A DNA stretch of 64,000 nucleotides, from NCBI RefSeq assembly GCF_022601675.1, contig NZ_JAKVIL010000002.1, positions 248,001 through 312,000 on the forward strand, written 5' to 3'. Below are positions 50,778 to 64,000 of the stretch, in pieces (position 1 is the first letter of the stretch; the number at the start of each line of letters is the position of its first letter). This DNA is from Ancylobacter gelatini (GTDB lineage Bacteria > Pseudomonadota > Alphaproteobacteria > Rhizobiales > Xanthobacteraceae). The notes under the pieces are model-generated. The model was given only the letters and a program-made list of their open reading frames with translations. It was not told the origin of the DNA and made no database searches. The translations under genes were made by a program, and so were the position numbers.

Positions 50778-51127
50778 CGGCGACGGGGCGGCGGCCACGG
50801 CGCGCGGAACGTTTTGCTGTTGAGCGAGACAAAAGCGCTTGATCTTTCGCTGTGCATGATCATAGATGATATAGGATATTGCATTTAAGGAGCCGTTCGG
50901 AGCCTTGAGTGGAGGGCCGCCGCATGACCGCCGCTCCGTCGGTCTGGAATCGGGGGCTACCGGCGCGAGATCCCCTCCCTGCGTCGCATCGCGTGCGAGC
51001 GAAGGGAGGCAACGAGAACAAGAAGTGCGCCGTCCAAGGCGCACGTCGCCACATCGCAATTGCGCGCTGAACATCGCAGACGGCGAGAGGCCGTCGCGCG
51101 GGGCAGCGGCGCAGGGAGGAAAATGAC
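50778..51127. other. Promoter region of the tct operon
   Basis: About 350 bases without a gene. It contains the GntR operator-like site at 50866-50884 next to an AT-rich block that could be the promoter, leaving a long 5' leader of about 240 bases before tctC. A strong binding site (GGGAGGA, 51114-51120) precedes the GTG start. Confidence 0.5.
50866..50884. promoter_or_regulatory. Putative GntR operator upstream of tctC
   Basis: ATGATATAGGATATTGCAT shares 13 consecutive bases (in reverse complement ATATCCTATATCAT except for one base) with the site before the gntR gene and 14 of 19 positions with the site before the CoA-transferase gene. It lies 244 bases before the tctC start codon. Confidence 0.6.
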
Positions 51128-52150
51128 GTGAAAAATCAAGTGTTCCGTGCCGGCCTGCTCACGGCGACCGCGCTGGCCTTCGGCCTTACCGCTTCGGGTG
51201 CCGCTCTCGCGGAATGGAAGCCCGACCGTCCGGTCGAGCTGGTCGTGTCTGCCGGTCCGGGCGGTGGTTCGGACATCTTCACGCGCGTCGTGCAGGCCGC
51301 GCTGACCAAGAACTCGCTGGTGTCGACACCGCTTCTCGTCGTGAACAAGCCGGGCGGCTCCGGTTCCGAGGCGTTCGCCTATGCCGAGGACAATCCCGAC
51401 AGCCCGTACAAGCTCTATTTCGGCACCCAGGACGCTTATGTGCTGCCGCTCACCACCAAGGTGACCTACAGCATGAAGGACCTGAAGCCGCTGATGACCA
51501 TGGCGTCGGACGTGTTCATCCTGTGGACCAACCCGAAGGCTTCCGGCATCAATACCGCGCAGGAATTCGTCGAGAAGGCCAAGGCCGCCCCCGGCAAGGT
51601 GCGCATCTCCGGTGCCAAGGCAAAGGACGCCGACGAGACGCTGGTGACGTTGATCGAGCGCGCGGCCGGCATCGATCTCGCCTACATCCCCTACAAGAGC
51701 GGCAGCGAGGCGGCCATTCAGGTCGCGGGCGGCCATGTCGAGGCCAACACCAACAATCCGAGCGAGAGCCTGGAGCAGTGGAAGGCCGGCAACCAGAAGC
51801 CGCTCTGCGTCTTCACCAGCGAGCGCCTGGCGGACAAGACCGTCGTGGCTGATGGCGTGAGCTGGGCGGATATCCCGACCTGCGTCGAGGCCGGCATCAA
51901 TGTGAAGGACTTCCTCCAGCCGCGCACGGTGTGGATGGGCGCGAACGCGCCGGCCGAGGCGGCGGCCTATTACACCGACCTTCTGAAGAAGGTGGCCGAT
52001 ACGCCGGAGTTCAAGGATTACTCCACGCGCAACGTCCAGATCAACAAGGTGCTCGTCGGCGATGAATTCAACGCCTATGTCGCCGAACAGGTGAAGAACT
52101 ACGAGAAGATCTACAAGGATAACGGCTGGCTGCTGTCCTCCGGGCAGTAA
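51128..52150 (+). CDS. tctC: Tripartite tricarboxylate transporter substrate-binding protein (TctC)
   Basis: The 340-residue periplasmic protein has a Sec signal peptide (cut near ALA-EW, about residue 28) and the TctC/Bug fold: PVELVVSAGPGGGSDIFTR near the start and DLAYIPYKSGSEAAIQVAGG in the middle. It captures a carboxylate and delivers it to TctAB. The GTG start at 51128 is preceded by GGGAGGA at 7 bases; an ATG at 51123 is out of frame and stops at once. It is the first gene of the catabolic operon. Confidence 0.92.
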   Translation: MKNQVFRAGLLTATALAFGLTASGAALAEWKPDRPVELVVSAGPGGGSDIFTRVVQAALTKNSLVSTPLLVVNKPGGSGSEAFAYAEDNPDSPYKLYFGTQDAYVLPLTTKVTYSMKDLKPLMTMASDVFILWTNPKASGINTAQEFVEKAKAAPGKVRISGAKAKDADETLVTLIERAAGIDLAYIPYKSGSEAAIQVAGGHVEANTNNPSESLEQWKAGNQKPLCVFTSERLADKTVVADGVSWADIPTCVEAGINVKDFLQPRTVWMGANAPAEAAAYYTDLLKKVADTPEFKDYSTRNVQINKVLVGDEFNAYVAEQVKNYEKIYKDNGWLLSSGQ

Positions 52151-52203
52151 TCCCCGCTCGTCAGCCGCTACGGCGGTGTCCGTCCTCGTGGAGTTAAGTT
52201 CGG

Positions 52204-52731
52204 ATGGAAATATCCCGCAACACCATGGAAGTGGCTGCGGCCGCGACGACCGCCCTTGTCGGGGCGGTCGTCTGCTACGGCTCGCTTGAGAACGGTATTG
52301 CCTGGGGCGAGTCCGGGCCGCAGCCCGGCTACTTCCCCTTCTGCATCGGCAGCCTGATCGTCGCCGGCAGCCTTGCCAACATCGTCTACACGCTGTGGAA
52401 GGGCGCGGCGCGAGCATCCGCCGTCGGTCCGGCGGGCGAGGCTGCCGGCGTCGTCGCGGCCGAGCCGTTCATCGACGGCACGCGCCTGCGCCAGCTGGCG
52501 GCGTTCTTCCTGCCGATCCTGGCCATGGTCGTCATCTCGGCCGGGCTCGGTCTCTATATCGGCATGGCGCTGTACATCTTCTATGCCATGCGGGTGTCGG
52601 TAGGTTACCGCACCATCACCAGCCTGCTGATCTCCGCCGCAGTGGTGCTCATCAACTTCTTCATCTTCGAGACCGTCTTCCTGGTTCCGCTGCTCAAGGG
52701 ACCGATCCTCGAATATTTCGGCATCTACTGA
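52204..52731 (+). CDS. tctB: Tripartite tricarboxylate transporter small membrane subunit (TctB)
   Basis: A 175-residue protein with four predicted membrane helices (about 10-30, 42-62, 98-120 and 135-160), the length and topology of TctB. GPQPGYFPFCIGSLIVAGSL in the first third is characteristic of the family. It forms the membrane complex with TctA encoded 32 bases downstream. Confidence 0.9.
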   Translation: MEISRNTMEVAAAATTALVGAVVCYGSLENGIAWGESGPQPGYFPFCIGSLIVAGSLANIVYTLWKGAARASAVGPAGEAAGVVAAEPFIDGTRLRQLAAFFLPILAMVVISAGLGLYIGMALYIFYAMRVSVGYRTITSLLISAAVVLINFFIFETVFLVPLLKGPILEYFGIY

Positions 52732-52763
52732 AATAAAATCAAGAAGAGCTGAGGAAACGACCC

Positions 52764-54308
52764 ATGGGCAATTTCGGCCAATTGATGGATGGCTTCGCCA
52801 TCGCCCTTACGACACACCACATCATGGTGATGGTGATCGGTGTGCTGCTCGGCCTGGTGGTCGGCGTGCTGCCGGGCCTTGGCGCCCCGAATGGCGTGTC
52901 GCTGCTGCTGCCGCTGACCTTCACCATGGACCCGATCTCGGCGATCATCCTGCTGACCTCGATGTATTGGGGCGCGCTGTTCGGCGGCTCGACCACCTCC
53001 ATCCTGTTCAACATTCCCGGCGAGCCGTCCTCGGTGGCCACCACCTTCGACGGCTACCCCATGGCCAAGCGCGGCGAGGCGGTCCGGGCGCTGACGCTGG
53101 CGTTCTCCTCCGCGGGCTTCGGTGCGCTGGTCGGCGTCCTCGTCATCACCCTGCTGTCCGGCTGGGTGGCGAATTTCGCGCTGCGCTTTGGCTCCCCGGA
53201 ATATTTCGGCGTCTACTTCCTCGCCTTCGCCAGCTTCATCGGCATGTCCGGCGGCTCGCCGTTCAAGACGCTGGTGTGCATCATGCTGGGCCTTGCGGCC
53301 GGCACGGTCGGCATGGACACGATTTCCGGCGAGGGGCGGCTCACCTTCGGCATCGCCGATCTGACGCGCGGCATCTCGTTCCTGATCGTGGTCATCGGCC
53401 TGTTCGGGCTCGGCGAACTGCTGGTGACGGTCGATGAGGGCTACAAGTTCGACGGCGTTAAAGCCAAGCTCAGCCTGTCGGTCATCTTCCGCACGCTGCT
53501 GGAACTGCCGCGCTACTGGGTCACGCTGCTGCGCAGCGCGCTGGTGGGCTGCTGGATGGGCATCACCCCCGGCGGCCCGACCGCCGCCTCCTTCATGAGC
53601 TACGCGCTGGGCCGCCGTTTCTCGCGGCGCGGCAGGTTCTTCGGCAAGGGCGAGCCGGAAGGCATCGTCGCGCCGGAGACCGCGGACCACTCCGCCGGTT
53701 CCTGCGCCCTGCTGCCGATGCTGGCGCTCGGCGTTCCCGGCTCGGCCACGGCGGCCGTCATGATGGGCGGCCTGATGATCTGGGGCCTGTCGCCCGGCCC
53801 GATGCTGTTCACGACCCGTCCGGATTTCGTCTGGGGCCTCATCGCCTCGATGTATGCCGGCAACCTCATCGCCGTCGTGCTGGTGCTCACCACCGTCCCG
53901 CTGTTCGCCTTCATCCTGCGCGCGCCGTTCTCGGTGGTCGGGCCGCTGATCGCGATCATCTGCGTCATCGGCGCCTATACCGTGTCGAACCACATGTTCG
54001 ACGTGTGGCTGGCGCTGATCTTCGGCATCGTCGGCTACGTCTTCAAGAAGCTCGACTATCCGCTCGCGCCCTTCGTTCTCGCCGTGGTGCTGGGGGACAA
54101 GGCGGAGGATGCCTTCCGCCAGTCCATGCTGTCCTCCGGCGGCTCGCTCACTGTCTTCTTCGAGACGCCGCTGGTGGGAACGATGATGGGCCTGGGCATC
54201 CTGCTGCTGCTGCTTCCCCTGCTGTCGCTGCTGTTCGGCGCGATCTTCGGGCGCGGCGGCGGGGCGGATGCCGGGGAGGCGGCCGACCACCAGACGTCCC
54301 GACCCTAG
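52764..54308 (+). CDS. tctA: Tripartite tricarboxylate transporter large membrane subunit (TctA)
   Basis: The 514-residue protein has about 12 membrane helices and the TctA signatures GVLPGLGAPNGVSLLLPLTF and YWGALFGGSTTSILFNIPGE, and a second, repeated set near LPMLALGVPGSATAAVMMGG. It drives secondary transport of the substrate bound by TctC. The AGGAAA site precedes the ATG at 52764. The energy source is probably an ion gradient, from family knowledge. Confidence 0.95.
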   Translation: MGNFGQLMDGFAIALTTHHIMVMVIGVLLGLVVGVLPGLGAPNGVSLLLPLTFTMDPISAIILLTSMYWGALFGGSTTSILFNIPGEPSSVATTFDGYPMAKRGEAVRALTLAFSSAGFGALVGVLVITLLSGWVANFALRFGSPEYFGVYFLAFASFIGMSGGSPFKTLVCIMLGLAAGTVGMDTISGEGRLTFGIADLTRGISFLIVVIGLFGLGELLVTVDEGYKFDGVKAKLSLSVIFRTLLELPRYWVTLLRSALVGCWMGITPGGPTAASFMSYALGRRFSRRGRFFGKGEPEGIVAPETADHSAGSCALLPMLALGVPGSATAAVMMGGLMIWGLSPGPMLFTTRPDFVWGLIASMYAGNLIAVVLVLTTVPLFAFILRAPFSVVGPLIAIICVIGAYTVSNHMFDVWLALIFGIVGYVFKKLDYPLAPFVLAVVLGDKAEDAFRQSMLSSGGSLTVFFETPLVGTMMGLGILLLLLPLLSLLFGAIFGRGGGADAGEAADHQTSRP

Positions 54309-54389
54309 ACCCTCGCATCCAGCCGCGGCGCGATCTGGCGCTGTTTGCGGGATCAAGGTATCATAAAACCTCTATCAGTGAGTTGCGCC

Positions 54390-55613
54390 ATGTTCGGAGC
54401 CCTGCGTCTACCCCACACCATCCTCTTCGGCGGCGGCCAGCGTCACGTCATCGGTTCGGCGGCCGCGCGCTTGGGAACGCGCACGCTGGTGTGCACCGAT
54501 GCCCGCATGGCGCAACTCGCCGTCTTCGCCGACCTCCTCAAGGACCTTGAGGCGCACGGCGTCGAGGCACGGGTCTACGACCAGACCATCGCCGACCTGC
54601 CGATCGAATCGATCAAGGAGTGCGTGGCCGGCGTCGGCGACTTCAAGCCGGACAGCATCATCGGCATTGGCGGCGGCAGCTGCATCGACATGGCGAAGGT
54701 GGTCTCGGTGCTGCTCACCCATGGCGGCGAGCCCAGCGCCTATTACGGTGAATTCGCCGTTCCCGGTCCCGTCGTGCCGCTGATCGCGGTGCCCACCACC
54801 TCCGGCACCGGCTCCGAGGTCACCCCGGTCGCGGTCATCCTCGACAGCGCCCGCGGCACCAAGATCGGCATCGCCAGCCCGTACATCATCCCACACATGG
54901 CGGTGTGCGACCCCGAGTTGACCATGACCTGCCCGGTCGGCCTCACCGCCTGCTCGGGCGCGGATGCGCTGGCCCATGCCGTCGAGGCGTTCACCAGCAA
55001 GACCCGTCCGGCCGACGCGATGCTGACCGAACAGCACGTCTTCATCGGCAAGAACATGCTCTCGGACCACTTCGCCCGGCTCGCGGTCTCGAACGTGTTC
55101 CGCTATCTCGCCCGCGCCTGCAAGGACGGCAGCGATGTCGAGGCCCGCGAGGGCATGATGCTGGCCTCGCTGGCGGCCGGCTGCGCCTTCGGCACGGCGG
55201 GCACGGCGGCGGCCCATGCGCTGCAATATCCGGTCGGCAACCTCACCCACACCTCGCATGGCGATGGCGTCGGCGCGCTGCTGCCCTTCGTCATGCAGTT
55301 CAACCGCTCCGCCAGCCCGGACGCCTTTGCGGAACTGGCCGGCGTGGTGGGTCTCGGCGATGCGTCGATGAGCGCAGACCAGCGTTCGCAACTCTTCATC
55401 GACGAGGTGGCGCAGCTATTCGCCGACATCGGCATTCCCCGCTCGCTCCAGGCGCTCGGCCTTGCGTCGGGTCATGAGAACGACGTCGCCGCCGGCGCGC
55501 TGAAGGCCGAGAGGCTGGTGAAGAACAATCCGCGCCCGCTGGACCTCGCCGCGATGCTCCACATCACGCAGGCCGCCTTTGCCGGCGAGCGTGCCGCGCT
55601 GCGCAATCTCTGA
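54390..55613 (+). CDS. Iron-containing alcohol dehydrogenase (group III type)
   Basis: The protein has 407 residues from ATG 54390 (ORF open to 54345). NAD site: GIGGGSCIDMAKV, and PTTSGTGSEVTPVAVI. Metal ligands are provided by Asp and His in CSGADALAHAVEAF and by the histidines in THTSHGDGVGALLP. Such enzymes oxidise hydroxy acids or diols to (semi)aldehydes. Together with the next gene, a semialdehyde dehydrogenase, this fits oxidation of a hydroxyacid such as 4-hydroxybutyrate, though that substrate is an inference. Co-transcribed with the tct genes by position. Confidence 0.85.
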   Translation: MFGALRLPHTILFGGGQRHVIGSAAARLGTRTLVCTDARMAQLAVFADLLKDLEAHGVEARVYDQTIADLPIESIKECVAGVGDFKPDSIIGIGGGSCIDMAKVVSVLLTHGGEPSAYYGEFAVPGPVVPLIAVPTTSGTGSEVTPVAVILDSARGTKIGIASPYIIPHMAVCDPELTMTCPVGLTACSGADALAHAVEAFTSKTRPADAMLTEQHVFIGKNMLSDHFARLAVSNVFRYLARACKDGSDVEAREGMMLASLAAGCAFGTAGTAAAHALQYPVGNLTHTSHGDGVGALLPFVMQFNRSASPDAFAELAGVVGLGDASMSADQRSQLFIDEVAQLFADIGIPRSLQALGLASGHENDVAAGALKAERLVKNNPRPLDLAAMLHITQAAFAGERAALRNL

Positions 55614-55633
55614 CCATCATCGGGATACAGATC

Positions 55634-57148
55634 ATGTCGACCAACACCGCGCACCAGATGCCCGCCGATACCGGCGCCACCTATGTCGTTCCCGGCTTCG
55701 GGGCGAAGGAGTCCTTCCCGATTCCGACCGACCTGCTCATCGGCGACAACTGGGTCGCGGGGAGCGGGGAGGGCCGTATCGAGGTTCTCAACCCCGCCAC
55801 CGGCGCGGTGCTGACCTCGATCGCCGATGCGACCGTCGCTGACGGCATGGCCGCGGTCGACGCCGCGCAGGCCGCCGCCGCCTCCTGGGCCGCGACCCCG
55901 CCGCGCGCCCGCGCCGTCATCCTGCAGCGCTGCTTCCACGCCATGGTCGAGCATGCCGACTGGCTGGCACAGCTCATCTCTCTGGAGAACGGCAAGGCGC
56001 TGCCGGATGCGCGCTCCGAAGTCATGTACGCCGCCGAGTTCTTCCGCTGGTACGCGGAAGAGGCGGTGCGGATCAATGGCGACATCGGCATCGCCCCGGC
56101 CGGCGGCAACCGCATCATGGTGCAGTACCAGCCGATCGGCATCTCCCTGCTGATCACGCCGTGGAACTTCCCGGCGGCGATGGCGACCCGCAAGATCGCC
56201 CCGGCGCTGGCCGCCGGCTGCACCTGCATCCTCAAGCCGGCGGAAGAGACTCCGCTGACCGCGCTGGCGGTGGGCGAAATCCTGCGCCGCGCCGGGGTGC
56301 CGGCCGGCACGGTGAACATCATCAACACCTCCGACCCCGCGAGCGTGTGCAGCGCCATCCTGCGTGACCGCCGCGTGCGCAAGCTGTCCTTCACCGGCTC
56401 CACCGAAGTCGGCCGCATCCTGCTGCGCGAGGCTTCCTACAACATCATCAACTCGTCGATGGAACTGGGCGGCAACGCGCCGTTCCTGGTGCTGGACGAT
56501 GCCGATCTCGACGCCGCCATCGACGGCGCGATGATCGCCAAGATGCGCAATGCCGGCGAGGCCTGCACGGCGGCCAACCGCTTCTATGTGCAGGAGGGCA
56601 TCTATCCCGCTTTCGTCGACCGGCTGGTGGAGAAGATGGGCGCGCTGAAGCTTGGCGCGGGAACCGATGCTGCCACCCAGTGCGGCGCGATGATCAACGG
56701 CGCGGCGATCGACAAGATCGAGATGCTGGTGAGCGACGCGGTTGGCAAGGGCGCGCGCGTGCGGCTCGGCGGCAAGACGCCGGCGGGCGAGGGCTTCTTC
56801 TACCCGCCGTCGGTGCTCGACGAGGTGCCGCTGAACGCCGACCTGCTGCGCGAGGAGATTTTCGGGCCGGTCGCGGCGGTGGTGCCGTTCAAGGACATCG
56901 AAGATGCCGTGCGCATGGCCAACGACACCGAATACGGCCTCGCCGCCTATGTCTACACCGAGAACATGAAGCTCGGGCTTCAGCTTGCCGAGCGGCTGGA
57001 ATACGGCATGGTCGCGCTCAATCGCGGTCTGGTCTCCGATCCCGCCGCACCGTTCGGCGGCGTCAAGCAGAGCGGGCTCGGGCGCGAGGGTGCCCATCAC
57101 GGGCTGCTCGAATTCACCGAGGCCAAGTATATCGCGGTCAACTGGTGA
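55634..57148 (+). CDS. NAD(P)-dependent aldehyde dehydrogenase (succinate-semialdehyde dehydrogenase-like)
   Basis: The 504-residue protein is a full-length ALDH with the motifs ITPWNFPAAMATRKIAPALA, LSFTGSTEVGRILL, the general base Glu in MELGGNAPFLV and the catalytic Cys in NAGEACTAANRFYV, the layout of GabD-type enzymes. PFGGVKQSGLGREG is near the C-terminus. It should oxidise the aldehyde product of the preceding dehydrogenase to a dicarboxylate or acid. It lies 20 bases after the alcohol dehydrogenase gene. Confidence 0.9.
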   Translation: MSTNTAHQMPADTGATYVVPGFGAKESFPIPTDLLIGDNWVAGSGEGRIEVLNPATGAVLTSIADATVADGMAAVDAAQAAAASWAATPPRARAVILQRCFHAMVEHADWLAQLISLENGKALPDARSEVMYAAEFFRWYAEEAVRINGDIGIAPAGGNRIMVQYQPIGISLLITPWNFPAAMATRKIAPALAAGCTCILKPAEETPLTALAVGEILRRAGVPAGTVNIINTSDPASVCSAILRDRRVRKLSFTGSTEVGRILLREASYNIINSSMELGGNAPFLVLDDADLDAAIDGAMIAKMRNAGEACTAANRFYVQEGIYPAFVDRLVEKMGALKLGAGTDAATQCGAMINGAAIDKIEMLVSDAVGKGARVRLGGKTPAGEGFFYPPSVLDEVPLNADLLREEIFGPVAAVVPFKDIEDAVRMANDTEYGLAAYVYTENMKLGLQLAERLEYGMVALNRGLVSDPAAPFGGVKQSGLGREGAHHGLLEFTEAKYIAVNW

Positions 57149-57232
57149 CGATGGCCGGGTGGGCGGCGCGCGTCGCCCGCCCGCGCCATGACGGCCCCCG
57201 GCGGCGCGGCGTCGCTTGGTTGGAACGATGAG

Positions 57233-57251
57233 AACCTATATCTTATATCAT
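57233..57251. promoter_or_regulatory. Putative GntR operator before the gntR gene
   Basis: AACCTATATCTTATATCAT matches the inverted-repeat site before the CoA-transferase gene at 15 of 19 positions. It lies 22 bases before the ATG at 57274, consistent with autorepression. Confidence 0.65.
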
Positions 57252-57273
57252 CTTTGTTTTAGGTTTGATTCAC

Positions 57274-58059
57274 ATGGCCACCAGCACTCAGGATCCCCTG
57301 TCGTTTTCGCGGCTGGTGGCGCTCGACGACAAGCGTCCCACCTATCCGCAATCGCTGGTGGAACTGGCTTATGAGCAGCTCCTGTCCATGCTGGTGACGA
57401 TGAAGATCGCGCCGGGCGGGCATATCAGCATCGAGGCGCTGGCGCGGCAGCTCGAAATCTCGCAGACCCCGATCCGCGAGGCGCTGACGCTGCTGGAGGC
57501 GCAGAAGCTCGCCTACAAGATCCCCAATGTCGGCTTCCGGGCGGCGGAACTGCTGACCCGCCAGGAAGTGCACGACCTGTTCGAGCTGCGCCTGCTGATC
57601 GAGCCGGCGGCGGCGGCCTTCGCGGCGGAAAAGGCCAATGACGAGGCGCTGCGCGCGCTGGAAACGCTTGCCGAGGAAATGTCGCGCCAGCAGACCGGCA
57701 ATGAGCTGGCCTACGCCCAGTTCGCGGAAGGCGACGCGCGCCTGCACCAGCTGGTGACGGCGGCGAGCGGCAACCGCTTCATCGCGGAGACGGTCGAGGG
57801 CCTGCACGTCCATCTCCACATCTTCCGCTTCCTGTTCAGGACCAACGCCACCGCCAAGGCCGTGCAGGAGCATGAGGCGATCGTCAGTGCGCTTCTCGCG
57901 CGCGACCCGGCGGGCGCGGAACAGGCGATGCGCAACCATCTGCTGGCCTCGCGCGGGCGCATGACGCTGGCGCTGGACGAGCAGGAGCGTCTGGCCGGCG
58001 CCAACCTCTCGCCGGAGGGCGGCGGGCGCCCGCGTCGGGGCCGCGCGCGCAAGCGCTGA
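57274..58059 (+). CDS. GntR-family regulator with FCD domain
   Basis: The 261-residue protein has an N-terminal winged HTH (IEALARQLEISQTPIREAL, about 52-70) and a C-terminal all-helical FCD ligand-binding domain (LFELRLLIEPAAAAFAAEKA, then GDARLHQLVTAASGN and EHEAIVSALLARDPAGAE), whose Asp and His residues typically bind a metal and a carboxylate. Located between the uptake/dehydrogenase genes and the CoA-transferase genes, with matching sites before all three units, it is the likely local repressor that senses the substrate. Confidence 0.9.
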   Translation: MATSTQDPLSFSRLVALDDKRPTYPQSLVELAYEQLLSMLVTMKIAPGGHISIEALARQLEISQTPIREALTLLEAQKLAYKIPNVGFRAAELLTRQEVHDLFELRLLIEPAAAAFAAEKANDEALRALETLAEEMSRQQTGNELAYAQFAEGDARLHQLVTAASGNRFIAETVEGLHVHLHIFRFLFRTNATAKAVQEHEAIVSALLARDPAGAEQAMRNHLLASRGRMTLALDEQERLAGANLSPEGGGRPRRGRARKR

Positions 58060-58122
58060 AGGCGGCAGAAGCACGCGGCGAACCGCGATCACCGTTTGAC
58101 AGGGGTCCGCGTCGTAACTAAA

Positions 58123-58141
58123 ATCATATAGGATATATGAT
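58123..58141. promoter_or_regulatory. Putative GntR operator before the CoA-transferase gene
   Basis: ATCATATA-GGA-TATATGAT has perfect 8-bp inverted arms around a 3-base spacer. It is the most symmetric of three related sites in this region and lies 146 bases before the CoA-transferase start. Confidence 0.7.
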
Positions 58142-58286: not shown

Positions 58287-59474
58287 ATGGCTCTGCCTCT
58301 ACAGGGCATCCGGGTGCTCGACATCTCGCAGGTGATGGCCGGGCCGTTCTGCTGCATGCTCTTGGCCGACATGGGCGCCGACGTCATCAAGATCGAGCCG
58401 CCGGGCACGGGCGATTCCACCCGCCATTCCATGGGCTTTCGGCTCAAGGGCTCCGACAGCCCCGGCTTTCTGGCGCTCAATCGCAACAAGCGCAGCATCA
58501 CGCTCGACCTCAAGTCGCCGGAAGACCGCGAGGTGCTCTACGCGCTGGTGAAGACCGCCGACGTGCTTGTCGAGAATGCCCGCCCCGGCGTCGCCTCGCG
58601 CCTCGGCATGGACTACGCCACGCTGAAGGCGATCAACCCGCGCCTCGTCTATGCCAGCATTTCCGGTTTCGGCCAGACCGGCCCGTGGTCGCAGCGGCCG
58701 GGCTTCGACCTGATCGCGCAGGCGGTGTCCGGCGTGCTCAGCTCCAACGGCTTCCCCGGCATGGAGCCGGCCAAGAACTCCATTGCGGTGGCCGATCTCG
58801 GCGCCGGCCTGTTCAGCGCCTACGCCATTCTGAGCGCGGTCATCGGCCGCCAGACCTCCGGCGAGGGCCAGCACATCGACGCGTCGCTGTTCGAGGCGGC
58901 GCTGGCGCTCTCGATCTGGGAGACCACGGAACTGTGGGGCACCGGCAAGTCGCCCGCGCCCATCGGCTCGGCCAACCGCATGTCCGCGCCCTATCAGGCG
59001 GTGGAAGCCGCCGATGGCTGGTTCGTCATTGGCGCCGCCAATCAGGGCCTGTGGCTGACCTTCCTGAAGGTGCTCGGCCGCGAGGAACTGCAGCAGGATG
59101 AGCGCTTCTCCACCAATGCCGCGCGTGTGCAGAACCGCATCGCGCTGATGGAGGAGCTGGCGCCGACCTTCCTCACCCGCACCCGCCAGGAATGGATCGA
59201 CGCGCTGATGGCGGCCGGCGTGCCGACGGCGCCGATCCTCGATTATGGCGAGGCGGTCGCCAGCGAGCAGGCCGAAGCGCGCCAGATGGTGCAGATGGTG
59301 CCGCACCCCGTCGAGGGCGAGTTCCGCGCGCTCGGCTTCCCGGTAAAGCTCAGCGCCACCCCGCAGGAAGTCCGCCTCCCGCCGCCGCTGCTCGATGAGC
59401 ATGGCGACGATATTCGCCGGGAACTGGTCCAAATGGGGCTGCTGTCGCAGTCGAAGACGAAGAGCGTGGCGTGA
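58287..59474 (+). CDS. Class III CoA-transferase (CaiB/BaiF family)
   Basis: The 395-residue protein has the family signature LPLQGIRVLDISQVMAGPF at the N-terminus, MGADVIKIEPPGTGD, and the catalytic Asp in VADLGAGLFSAYAIL. It moves CoA from an acyl-CoA donor to a carboxylic acid. Here it probably activates the acid made or imported by this gene set. The ATG at 58287 follows GGGAGGAATTG; GTG and TTG codons just upstream are also in frame. It overlaps the hydratase gene (ATGA-type). Confidence 0.92.
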   Translation: MALPLQGIRVLDISQVMAGPFCCMLLADMGADVIKIEPPGTGDSTRHSMGFRLKGSDSPGFLALNRNKRSITLDLKSPEDREVLYALVKTADVLVENARPGVASRLGMDYATLKAINPRLVYASISGFGQTGPWSQRPGFDLIAQAVSGVLSSNGFPGMEPAKNSIAVADLGAGLFSAYAILSAVIGRQTSGEGQHIDASLFEAALALSIWETTELWGTGKSPAPIGSANRMSAPYQAVEAADGWFVIGAANQGLWLTFLKVLGREELQQDERFSTNAARVQNRIALMEELAPTFLTRTRQEWIDALMAAGVPTAPILDYGEAVASEQAEARQMVQMVPHPVEGEFRALGFPVKLSATPQEVRLPPPLLDEHGDDIRRELVQMGLLSQSKTKSVA

Positions 59475-60256
59475 TGAGCACTCCCGGTATCGATTTCGAG
59501 AAGGCTGGCGACGTCGCCTTCGTCCGCTTCAACAACCCGTCGGCGCACAACGCCCTCACCAGCCAGATGTGGCACGACCTGCGCGACGCCGCGCTGGCGA
59601 TCGCGGAGGATCCCGCGATCCGCGTCGCGGTGTTCCGCGGCGTGGGCGGCAAGGCGTTCGTCTCCGGTACCGACATTTCCGGCTTCACCAAGTTCGCCAG
59701 CGGCGCCGACGGCGTGGCCTATGAGCGTGGCATCGATGAGTGCATGAGCGCGGTCGACGCCATCCCGGTCACGACCATCGCCGTGGTCGATGGCTGGGCG
59801 GTCGGCGGCGGGCTCAACATCGCCTCCGCCTGCGATTTCCGCCTCGCCACACCGGGCGCGCGCTTCGGCTCGCCCATCGGCCGCACGCTCGGTAATTGCC
59901 TGTCGGCGCTCAGCATGGCGCGCATCGGCGGCGCCATCGGCGTGCCGCTGGCCAAGCGCATGGTGCTGCTCGGCGAAATCATCACGGCCGAGGAAATGCT
60001 CGCCAAGGGCTTCCTGCTGAAGATCCTCGATGCGGGGGCGATGGAGGCGGAGGTCGAGGCGCTGTGCCGCCGCGCGGCCGAGAACGCGCCGCTGACCACC
60101 CGCGCCACCAAGGCCACGATCCGCAAGCTCTCCCTCGACCAACTGCCGGACATCGAGGCGATCGTCTCCGAGGTCTATGGCAGCGAGGATTTCCGCCGCG
60201 GCGTCGAGGCGTTCCTCGCCCGCACCAAGTCCGTTCCGACGTGGACCGGCAAATAG
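59474..60256 (+). CDS. Enoyl-CoA hydratase/isomerase family protein
   Basis: The 260-residue crotonase-fold protein has the oxyanion-hole segments GGKAFVSGTDISGF and VDGWAVGGGLNIASACDFRLA. Its reaction is not fixed by sequence: hydration, isomerisation or related chemistry on a CoA thioester. It is translationally coupled to the CoA-transferase, so both should act on the same acyl-CoA. The C-terminal part includes PLTTRATKATIRKL, typical of the family. Confidence 0.88.
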   Translation: MSTPGIDFEKAGDVAFVRFNNPSAHNALTSQMWHDLRDAALAIAEDPAIRVAVFRGVGGKAFVSGTDISGFTKFASGADGVAYERGIDECMSAVDAIPVTTIAVVDGWAVGGGLNIASACDFRLATPGARFGSPIGRTLGNCLSALSMARIGGAIGVPLAKRMVLLGEIITAEEMLAKGFLLKILDAGAMEAEVEALCRRAAENAPLTTRATKATIRKLSLDQLPDIEAIVSEVYGSEDFRRGVEAFLARTKSVPTWTGK

Positions 60257-60288: not shown

Positions 60289-61035
60289 TCAGCGGTCCGG
60301 CTGCACCTCGTGCTCCAGCACCCGGCGGGTGACACGCCAGCCATTGAAATGGTGGGCGCGCAGCAATTCGCGCAGCAGCGGCCCCTGTCGCTGCTTGAGC
60401 GCCGCCACAATCTGCTCGTGCTCCATCACCGCGCGGGCCCAGCGCTCACTTACCCGGTTGCCGGCGAAGCGGTACAGCCGCACGCGCGCGCTTTCCACCC
60501 GGTAGACCCGCGACAGCGCCGGATTATGCGCGCAGTCGACAATGGTCTGGTGGATCTCCTGATTGATGCGGAAATAACCCATCAGGTCGCCCGCCCGCTG
60601 GCACGCCACCATGTCCTCGTGCCGGGCTTCCACCCGCGCGAATTCTTCCGCCGTGCCCCGCTCGCAGGCCGGCTCCGCCGCCACGCTTTCGAGGCCGGCG
60701 AGCAGTTCCATGGCGAGGTCGACCTCTTCCGGGGACAGCTTGGTCACCTGCGCGCCGCGATTGGGCACGATCTGCACCAGGCCTTCGGTTTCCAGAATCT
60801 TGAACGCCTCGCGCAGCGGCGTGCGGGTCACGCCGAGCCCCTCGGTCAGCATGCGCTCGGAGATGCGCCCGCCCGGCGGCAACTCGCCGGCCAGGATCAT
60901 GTCGCGGATGCGCTCGACGACATGGGTCGCGCTGCGCCCGCGCAGCGTGCGCGCCAGATCGGGAGCCAAATCAGCCATGTCGGTCGCCGGCTCGGGCGAC
61001 TGATCGGGAGTGGCAGGCTCGGTGAGTGATTGCAT
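60289..61035 (-). CDS. GntR-family regulator with FCD domain
   Basis: The 248-residue protein has a winged HTH (RISERMLTEGLGVTRTPLRE, about 57-76) and an FCD ligand-binding domain with NQEIHQTIVDCAHNPALSRV and EHEQIVAALKQRQG. It is convergent with the CoA-transferase operon and divergent from the third molybdenum hydroxylase operon, which starts about 440 bases away and is its most likely target. Confidence 0.9.
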   Translation of the reverse strand: MQSLTEPATPDQSPEPATDMADLAPDLARTLRGRSATHVVERIRDMILAGELPPGGRISERMLTEGLGVTRTPLREAFKILETEGLVQIVPNRGAQVTKLSPEEVDLAMELLAGLESVAAEPACERGTAEEFARVEARHEDMVACQRAGDLMGYFRINQEIHQTIVDCAHNPALSRVYRVESARVRLYRFAGNRVSERWARAVMEHEQIVAALKQRQGPLLRELLRAHHFNGWRVTRRVLEHEVQPDR

Positions 61036-61478: not shown

Positions 61479-61937
61479 ATGAAATTCACACTCAACGGAG
61501 CCGAGCACAGCATCGAGGCGGACGGCGACATGCCTCTGCTCTGGGCGCTGCGCGACGTCGTCGGCCTCACCGGCACCAAATTCGGCTGCGGCGTCGCGCT
61601 GTGCGGCGCCTGCACGGTCCATGTCGACGGAGCGCCGGTCCGCTCGTGCCAGACCACCGTGGCGGATGTCGAGGGCAAGAGCGTCACCACCATCGAGGGC
61701 GTCGCCGGCAGCGGCGAGGTCGGTCAGGCGGTGGTGGCGGCCTGGCGCAAGCTCGACGTGGTGCAGTGCGGCTACTGCCAGTCCGGGCAGATCATGTCCG
61801 CCGTCGGGCTGCTCAGCGAAAATCGCAAGCCGACCGATGACGATATCGACGCGGCCATGGACGGCAATGTCTGCCGCTGCGCCACCTATCAACGCATCCG
61901 CGCGGCGATCCACGACGCCGCCGCCAACCTCGCGTGA
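61479..61937 (+). CDS. (2Fe-2S) subunit of molybdenum hydroxylase, copy 3
   Basis: The 152-residue protein has cluster motifs [15 protein letters not shown] and [12 protein letters not shown] with [11 protein letters not shown]. It is the electron-carrying partner of the molybdopterin subunit whose gene starts 6 bases downstream. The ATG at 61479 gives the standard family start [10 protein letters not shown]; 12 upstream codons in the frame are not conserved. Confidence 0.92.
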
Positions 61938-61942
61938 TCGCC

Positions 61943-64000
61943 ATGCACCTCATCAAACCGGACCATTACCGCAAGATGCTGGCGGGCCAGCTGGCGGGCC
62001 AGTCGGCGGGCTCGGGCGAGCCGGTGGCGCCCTCGCGCCGCGGCTTCCTGCAGGGCGTCGCCGCCATCGGCGGCGCGCTGGTCATCGGCCTTCATCTGGA
62101 AACGGGCAAGGCGTTCGCCGCCGCCGCGAAAGACGGCCCGATGCCCAACGCCTTCGTGCGCATCGCCCCCGACAGCACCGTCACCGTGCTGATCAAGCAC
62201 CTCGACATGGGGCAGGGCGTGACCACCGGCCTCGCCACCATCGTCGCCGAGGAACTCGACGCCGACTGGAGCCAGATGCGCGCCGCCTTCGCGCCGGCCG
62301 ATGCGCTGCTCTACAACAATCTGGCGTTCGGCCCGGTGCAGGGCACGGGCGGCTCGACCTCCGTCGCCAATAGCTGGGAGCAACTGCGCAAGGCCGGCGC
62401 CGCCGCCCGCCACATGCTGGTCGCCGCCGCCGCCGAGAAATGGGGCGTGCCCGCTTCCAGCATCACCATCGACAAGGGCCGGCTGGCGAGCGGCAGCCAT
62501 TCCGGCAGCTTCGGCGAGTTTGCCGAGGCCGCCGCCAAACTGCCGGTGCCCACCGAGGTCACGCTCAAGGACCCGAAGGACTTCAGGCTGATCGGCACGC
62601 GCCTGCCGCGCCTCGATTCGGCCGACAAGACCGACGGCAAGGCGATCTACGCGCTCGACATCCGCCGTCCGGGCATGCTCACCGCGGTACTGCGCCGTCC
62701 GGACCGCTTCGGCGCCACGCTCAAGAGCTTCGACGCCACGGCGGCGAAGAAGGTGCCGGGCGTGGTCGAGGTGGTGGCGGTGCCCAACGGCATCGCGGTG
62801 CTCGCCACTAACACCTGGGCGGCGATCCAGGGCCGCGAGGCGCTGGCCGACATCGTCTGGGACGAGGCCAATGCCGAGATGCGCTCCACGCCCGAGCTGA
62901 TGACGGCCTACAAGCAGCTCGCCACCACGCCCGGCACGAGCGCCGCGAAGCGCGGCGATGCGGCCAAGGGCCTTTCGGGCGCCGCCAAGGTGATCGAGGC
63001 GGAGTTCGAGTTCCCCTATCTCGCCCACGCGCCGATGGAGCCGCTCAACTGCGTGATTGAGAAGACCGGCGACGGTGTGACCATCTGGACCGGCTCGCAG
63101 TTCCAGACCATCGAGCAGGCGGTGACCGCCGGCATCATGGGAATCAAGCTCGAGCAGGTGAAGATCGAGACGCTGTGGGCCGGTGGCTCCTTCGGGCGCC
63201 GGGCCAATCCGCCGGCCGACTATGTGGCGGAGGCGGCGACGATCCTCAAGGCCATTGACGGGCGCGCCCCGGTTCATCTGGTCTGGACCCGCGAGGACGA
63301 CATCAAGGGCGGCTATTACCGCCCCATGTTCTACCACAAGGTCCGCGCCGGGGTGACGGCGGACGGCAAGATCGCCGGCTGGGAACAGCAGATCGTCGGC
63401 CAGTCCTTCATCGTGGGCACGCCGTTCGAGGCGTTCATCGTCAAGAATGGCGTCGACGGCACCTCGGTCGAGGGCGCCTCCGACACCAATTACGACATCG
63501 GCAATTTCGCGGTGGACCTGCACACGGTTCCCTCGAAGGTGCCGACGCTGTGGTGGCGCTCGGTCGGCCACACCCACACCGCGCAGGCGGTGGAGGTGAT
63601 GATCGACGAACTCGCCCACGCCGCCGGCCGCGATCCGGTGGAGTTCCGCATGGAGCTGCTCAAGGACAAGCCGCGCCACGCCGCCGTGCTCAAGCTTCTG
63701 GCGGAAAAAGCGAATTGGGGTCCCAAGGCCGGGCAGGGCAAGGGCCGTGGCCTCGCGCTGCATGAGAGCTTCGACACGGTGGTCGGCAGCGTGATCGACG
63801 TCTCGGTGGTGGACGGCCAGATCAAGGTCGACAAGGTGATCTGCGCCGTAGATTGCGGCATCGCCATCAACCCGGACGTCATTGCCGCGCAGATCGAGGG
63901 CGGCGTCGGCTTCGGTCTCGGCGCCGCGCTGCATGACGAGATCACGCTCGACAAGGGGCTGGTGGAGCAGTCGAATTTCGACGGCTTCATTCCGCTGCGC
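61943..64000 (+). CDS. Xanthine dehydrogenase-family molybdopterin subunit, copy 3 (3' end outside window)
   Basis: The frame is open from ATG 61943 to the end of the window, 686 codons without a stop. The N-terminus has a twin-arginine signal ([20 protein letters not shown]). Family motifs include [20 protein letters not shown] (20 residues), [46 protein letters not shown] and [19 protein letters not shown]. The C-terminal catalytic glutamate region is beyond the edge. Only about 50 residues should be missing by comparison with the other two copies (729 and 738 residues). A GTG at 61934 is an alternative start. Confidence 0.9.

Follow-up and report, generated by a model that had tools for sequence, protein, structure and literature searches.

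The DNA analyzed here, a 64,000-nucleotide stretch of the Ancylobacter gelatini genome (contig NZ_JAKVIL010000002.1, positions 248,001 to 312,000; hereafter the window), carries on its + strand a catabolic gene block arranged around a gene for a GntR/FCD regulator, and putative operators of one type precede 3 transcription units of this block. The regulator (gntR, 57274..58059) is an FCD (FadR-type) GntR protein, with both domains above cut-off (PF00392, 39 bits, cut-off 27; PF07729, 92 bits, cut-off 24.3), and has a glutamine, Gln64, at the position that is Arg45 in FadR and in Agrobacterium fabrum Atu1419. On its 5' side lies a complete tripartite tricarboxylate transporter (TTT), the 3 components of which all exceed their cut-offs (solute-binding protein gene tctC, 51128..52150, PF03401, 1.1e-21; tctB, 52204..52731, PF07331, 4e-12; tctA, 52764..54308, PF01970, 5.2e-143), followed by an iron-containing alcohol dehydrogenase (FeADH, 54390..55613, PF00465, 6.8e-46) and an aldehyde dehydrogenase (ALDH, 55634..57148, PF00171, 1e-158). 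On its 3' side, a class III CoA-transferase gene (58287..59474, PF02515, 2.5e-133) precedes that of an enoyl-CoA hydratase/isomerase family protein (59471..60256, PF00378, 2.5e-35; NF004796, 295.1 bits, exceeding the cut-off of 272). A second GntR gene, on the - strand, comes after the block (60289-61035).

The original prediction had placed a shared motif upstream of tctC, gntR and the CoA-transferase gene, at 50866, 57233, and 58123, respectively. All 3 sequences are present at these positions, and sites precede the same units both here and in relatives. Searching the window with ATSATATARGATAT and up to 2 mismatches returned 4 matches, all at the 3 sites (those at 50859 and 50866 overlap), where shuffles expect 0.12. 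The putative operator of the CoA-transferase unit (58122..58139, core ATCATATAGGAT at 58123-58134) is the best match in the window to a matrix derived from related loci, as described below (32.4 bits), and that of gntR (57235..57252, core ATCTTATATCAT at 57240-57251, 30.0 bits) lies 22 bp 5' of the start codon. The putative operator of the tctCBA-FeADH-ALDH unit (50858..50879) starts 269 bp 5' of the tctC start codon and consists of the boxes ATCAT-AG-ATGAT-AT-AGGAT on a 7-bp grid. Here the predicted site is real but its register was set 7 bp too far right, since the best-scoring register is 50858-50875 (29.2 bits) rather than 50865-50882 (23.3 bits). The usual form of the operator is ATATC-MTATAK-GATAT, that is, the ATCNTATANGAT type, and the wider arrangement ATC[AC]T-N9-A[GT]GAT is found on the + strand at 2 places in the window, 50859 and 58123. 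The tctC operator is separated from the start codon by 248 bases (50880-51127), and in 7 relatives the operator start lies 264 to 344 bp before the start codon. No Rfam family was found in this leader; the sole match of the RNA search (55797-55874, other strand, E 0.3) is below the gathering score.

The last of the 3 sites had also been described as a 19-bp palindrome of two perfect 8-bp arms around a 3-bp spacer. Such a palindrome does exist at 58123-58141, but its last 4 bases are not conserved: across 16 CoA-transferase promoters (the comparison was made without that of locus L012) their pairwise identity is 0.2 to 0.5, whereas the AT that follows GAT is invariant, although it played no part in placing the alignment. 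This puts the last 4 bases of the palindrome outside the conserved element at these promoters. The core of the same promoters has a mean pairwise identity of 0.90 and the flanks one of 0.32, in an alignment that was placed on the core. By sequence conservation, the operator is ATCNTATANGAT plus AT and not the 19-bp 8-3-8 palindrome. The 19-bp spacing at tctC, which is kept in 8 of 9 loci, may still matter.

The motif is rare in the source genome (4,308,108 bases in 20 contigs), which was searched as a whole by pattern, the matrix being run over the window and selected loci. The 14-mer ATSATATARGATAT has 3 exact matches, which are the 3 sites; the outcome named beforehand as adverse, many unrelated matches of equal quality, did not occur. 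A single further match was obtained with one mismatch (C4:18255), and the reversed control of the pattern also gave 1. The C4:18255 match counts for the motif and not as noise because it lies approximately 140 bp upstream of the regulator's closest paralogue, which is 43% identical and located at C4:18406. The shorter ATCNTATANGAT occurs exactly at 2 places, 58123 and C4:18255, and with one mismatch at 13 more, 3 of them at the module and 10 elsewhere, for 3 places with the control. Open frames of at least 100 codons cover 9 of the 10 places elsewhere and also 4 of the 5 at the module or paralogue, so this test does not discriminate between them. A 15.2-bit matrix match approximately 32 kb from the module (L099:1496-1513, G000:C13:337497) precedes a possible gene and may be a weak target or chance.

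To derive the motif independently of the window, we used the loci retrieved by scanning genome contigs with the regulator. Of these 27 loci, 16 (L005-L020) encode regulators of 62% to 81% identity and keep at least gntR and the CoA-transferase and enoyl-CoA hydratase genes together; the remaining 11 (L021-L031, 26% to 36%) entered only the pattern scan and the helix listing. Expectation-maximisation on 43 upstream regions of the 16 near loci, with the window excluded (16 CoA-transferase, 15 gntR, 8 tctC, and 4 FeADH regions), yielded CCTATATCATATATGATT with a log-likelihood ratio of 548, and 5 dinucleotide shuffles searched with equal effort reached 85 to 97. When this window-free matrix was scanned over the window, the registers starting at 58122, 57235, 50858 and 50865 obtained the scores given above, and the next unrelated place scored 7.2 bits. 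Counting the window, 17 of 17 loci (15 exact) have a core of at most one mismatch upstream of the CoA-transferase gene and 11 of 17 have one upstream of gntR, and ATCATAGATNATATAKGAT is found upstream of tctC in 8 of the 9 loci with a TctC match of at least 40% identity. Among the distant loci, the pattern with 2 mismatches matched 4 times in L031 and once in L030, L021-L029 giving none.

The shared words could in principle be promoter elements or chance, being AT-rich in a genome rich in GC and coinciding in part with predicted -10 regions. This explanation is largely refuted and very improbable: the words are palindromic, their exact copies in the genome lie only beside 2 related regulators, the motif is recovered with the window excluded, and the conservation at the 16 CoA-transferase promoters drops sharply from core to flanks.

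In 3 Bosea loci the FeADH-ALDH genes have their own motif copy, and in 2 of these (L011 and L019) no TctCBA match is found at the block while FeADH has its own site. At L014 there is no site directly before FeADH, and matrix matches occur before the first gene of an Ldh_2-FeADH-ALDH run. On the Sphingobium plasmid pSRL1, from another order, the regulator is 57% identical with the helix SQTPIREAL, sites precede both gntR and the next gene, and FeADH and a succinate-semialdehyde dehydrogenase (SSADH) lie downstream. Across Ancylobacter, Bosea, Aureimonas/Aurantimonas, Falsochrobactrum and the Sphingobium plasmid, the motif goes together with the regulator and with the units it would control. The comparison thus supports the proposed regulon well but not the 19-bp palindrome as its recognition unit, and the proposal of a single substrate would be a further assumption, since other transporters are found in some relatives. 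The distribution of the regulator is patchy: at E 1e-60, orthologues were obtained in 7 of 248 genomes sampled from the family and 1 of 397 sampled from the order, both groups being larger than the samples and the own genome counting among them.

The position of the sites bears on the sign of regulation. A promoter scan made a sole find for the CoA-transferase unit, TTGACA-N17-TAAAAT at 58096..58124 on the + strand, which is weak alone because shuffles average 1.0. An exact TTGACA is nevertheless present at this position in 12 of 17 loci, where the operator core begins at -4 to +4 nt relative to the first base of the best -10 hexamer. Repression is most likely because the site overlaps the predicted -10 hexamer of this promoter, and the gntR site, so close to its start codon, likewise fits a repressor. 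FCD proteins are known as activators as well as repressors, and the tctC operator is far from its start codon and has no clear promoter beside it, so the regulator might instead activate, or act with either sign depending on position. We consider this unlikely because activators are usually placed upstream of the -35 region, which does not agree with the CoA-transferase and gntR sites.

The regulator is further distinguished by its recognition helix. FadR-subfamily operators usually, though not universally, carry TKGT/ACMA boxes, NanR and BioR being exceptions, and the arginine of the helix is described as preferring the G of these boxes (PMC4494728); in Agrobacterium fabrum Atu1419, Arg45 reads the essential G3 of ATGTATACAT (PMC7797058). 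Neither feature is found here: the operator lacks the boxes, and the helix of the regulator reads SQTPIREAL, or SPTPIREAL in 3 Bosea loci. All 45 FCD regulators of the source genome could be read at this position (in 3 adjacent pairs the reading is ambiguous between neighbors, but both members are seen with Arg), giving 39 Arg, 2 Gln, and one each of Ile, Ala, Met, and Ser. The 2 Gln proteins are the regulator at 57274 and the C4 paralogue, and the 2 exact ATCNTATANGAT places of the genome adjoin exactly these. We counted the base at -3 of each half-site over 43 sites of the window and relatives (leaving out gntR of L012 and L014 and tctC of L013). The 34 sites of Gln loci have A 42, C 16, T 9, and G 1, and the 9 sites of Pro loci have C 17 and A 1, so that G, the base read by Arg45 in Atu1419 (PMC7797058), occurs in 1 of 86 orthologue half-sites. 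The Pro pattern is suggestive only because all Pro loci belong to one genus. These data would be compatible with a class of FCD regulators that carry Gln or Pro where Arg45 would be expected and have an operator code of their own: ATCNN/NNGAT boxes on a 7-bp grid, inverted pairs of 12 or 19 bp, and a -3 base that is A with Gln and C with Pro instead of G. Such a class would travel as one cassette together with FeADH-ALDH modules, the transporter (TTT, TRAP, ABC, or MFS) being exchangeable. We put this forward tentatively and hold it to be somewhat less than an even chance; its odds are lowered by the operator of the C4 paralogue, ATCGTATAGGAT, not part of the -3 count, which has a G on one side though that regulator has Gln. 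A general rule that every Gln-type regulator uses the present operator was rejected, as the matrix reaches at most 9.7 bits at the SQT regulators of genomes G010, G021, and G024. Related ATCCGAT boxes were noted by eye at these regulators. Upstream of gntR at the SQT regulators of L112:5748 and L056 the sequence is ATCCGAT-TTGATAT-CGGAT, with a similar one at L111, and to the eye a 7-bp box grid fits here as well.

We analyzed 30 genomes of the genus, own included, at a match cut-off of E 1e-40. Matches were obtained in 18 of the 30, 9 with the orthologue and 17 with a paralogue. With up to one mismatch allowed, the pattern has 55 matches in this set: 22 fall at the 9 loci that hold the orthologue, 12 are no more than 300 bp upstream of a paralogue, and 1 more is at a paralogue locus. 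Ten of the 12 exact matches belong to orthologue loci; of the other 2, one is at a paralogue and one within a methyltransferase frame of G017. In the own genome (L036:6944-12628, G000:C4), FeADH diverges from the Gln-type GntR gene, an ABC transporter follows (ATPase, permease, and binding protein), and one operator lies between. Five of the 17 paralogue genomes (G008, G010, G011, G016, and G024) have no site with up to one mismatch beside the paralogue; a more diverged site is picked up there by the matrix in G011 and G016. In many of the paralogue search alignments (L046-L062), the final part contains one or two TGA codons. In a genome with the paralogue only, a 23.9-bit matrix match (L110:4054-4071, G001:C4) lies approximately 300 bp before an acetyl-CoA hydrolase/transferase gene.

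The 3 sites might be bound by another FCD regulator, either the C4 paralogue or the GntR encoded at 60289-61035. The paralogue shares the helix SQTPIREAL and its operator, ATCGTATAGGATAT, is one mismatch from the window pattern, but G005, which has the orthologue and no paralogue at E 1e-40, keeps sites before all 3 units. Of the 9 paralogue-only genomes, 7 have a site with up to one mismatch just upstream of the paralogue, and G008 has several matrix matches, but these belong to a related system of its own (L108, G008:C1:72000-84000; TctA/TctC, ALDH, GntR, and FeADH), before TctC, ALDH and GntR. As for the second GntR, it adjoins the block in 6 related loci (L005-L007, L009, L017, and L020), but it has Arg at the reading position, and a search at E 1e-15 did not detect it next to the block in L018, L008 and L010, which retain the motif. 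We regard it as quite unlikely that either protein, rather than the regulator at 57274, uses the sites.

Altogether, these results lead us to a reading to which we assign a probability of roughly 0.85, namely that the GntR/FCD protein at 57274 would be a local repressor of its own gene, of tctCBA-FeADH-ALDH and of CoA-transferase-enoyl-CoA hydratase through one shared operator. Several observations weigh against it. Finding the regulator in all 16 related loci is a given, because it served to retrieve them, and best-match alignment raises the apparent conservation of the core. Upstream of gntR the site carries 2 mismatches in 5 of 17 loci, and L014 has none; the tctC of L013 (42% identical) is not preceded by a site, FeADH having it there instead; and on pSRL1 a further match, of 20.2 bits, falls within a gene. 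In the genus, 20 of the 55 matches lie elsewhere, for 14 with the reversed control. In the own genome, only 5 of the 15 ATCNTATANGAT places with up to one mismatch belong to the module or paralogue, the other 10 lying elsewhere, and the control has 3 places, so that extra weak targets are possible, as is an imperfect control. Cross-binding by the paralogue is also possible, given its nearly identical operator in the same genome. Finally, repression is argued solely from site position, the promoter scan found no promoter for tctC or gntR, the -10 hexamers at the CoA-transferase gene match TATAAT at 3 to 5 of 6 bases, and 5 of 17 loci lack TTGACA.

Assuming repression by the regulator at 57274, we infer that a dimer would bind ATCNTATANGAT on or near the -10 region and thereby shut out RNA polymerase, and that a second dimer may be recruited by the additional half-boxes located 7 bp further on, which are most evident at tctC. 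Release of the regulator would probably be due to a carboxylate of the pathway, and the pathway itself would lead from an alcohol or hydroxy acid through an aldehyde and an acid to a CoA thioester.

This arrangement has partial counterparts among described regulators. Atu1419, a GntR/FCD protein of the VanR type, shares with the present system the GntR helix-turn-helix and FCD domains, a short TATA-centered palindrome and operators positioned at or close to the -10 region, and, as in the regulon proposed here, it controls its own and neighboring catabolic genes; its operator is ATGTATACAT (PMC7797058). The regulons of the FadR subfamily described by Suvorova et al. 2015 (PMC4494728) have, as here, palindromic AT-rich operators with weaker extra half-sites, placed 7 to 12 nt from the center in GntR operators, but the consensus TKGT/ACMA boxes are missing here. 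Escherichia coli NanR, also a GntR-type repressor with a non-canonical operator of repeated boxes, binds (GGTATA)3 as 3 dimers, its boxes being direct 6-bp repeats whereas those here are inverted on a 7-bp grid (PMC8012715). The nearest solved sequence, PDB 7xp0 ("Probable transcriptional regulator"), covers both domains (regulator residues 27-237) but is distant (E 3.7e-22) and has Arg in its helix, ISRGPLREA. Literature searches with the exact operator strings and for the regulator and module returned nothing on this system by title or abstract among the matches listed; degenerate logos in figures escape such searches.

We name no substrate for the module because NCBIfam scores of the dehydrogenases and the CoA-transferase, as far as listed, are under cut-off and the nearest solved structures of its enzymes are generic. 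FeADH reaches the cut-off of none of 17 NCBIfam models (4-hydroxybutyrate dehydrogenase, 197.7 bits for 500 needed), the CoA-transferase that of none of 7, and for ALDH no model reaches it among 25 listed of 44, the top one being SSADH (TIGR01780, 544.5 bits, cut-off 646). A 4-hydroxybutyrate/succinate-semialdehyde pathway finds no support in these scores of the 2 dehydrogenases, and 4-hydroxybutyrate, lactone and branched-acid routes, weighed as candidates, were not adopted. In relatives, L011, L014 and L016 add a 3-hydroxyisobutyrate-dehydrogenase-like gene 3' of the enoyl-CoA hydratase gene, L014 and L016 also an amidohydrolase, and the transporter there varies (TRAP in L011 and L014, TTT in L016). 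Beyond the block, at 61479-63990 on the + strand, a [2Fe-2S] subunit-like frame precedes a molybdopterin aldehyde-oxidase-like one, by a guess made by eye; 2 other frames had no match when searched against families.

The system offers a testable case of a change in operator code within a very large regulator family, in which the residue at a known base-contact position and the base pair expected to be read by it both depart from what is textbook for the family. If this is true, the operators of similar FCD regulators would become predictable, and an uncharacterized catabolic module would gain a defined regulon.

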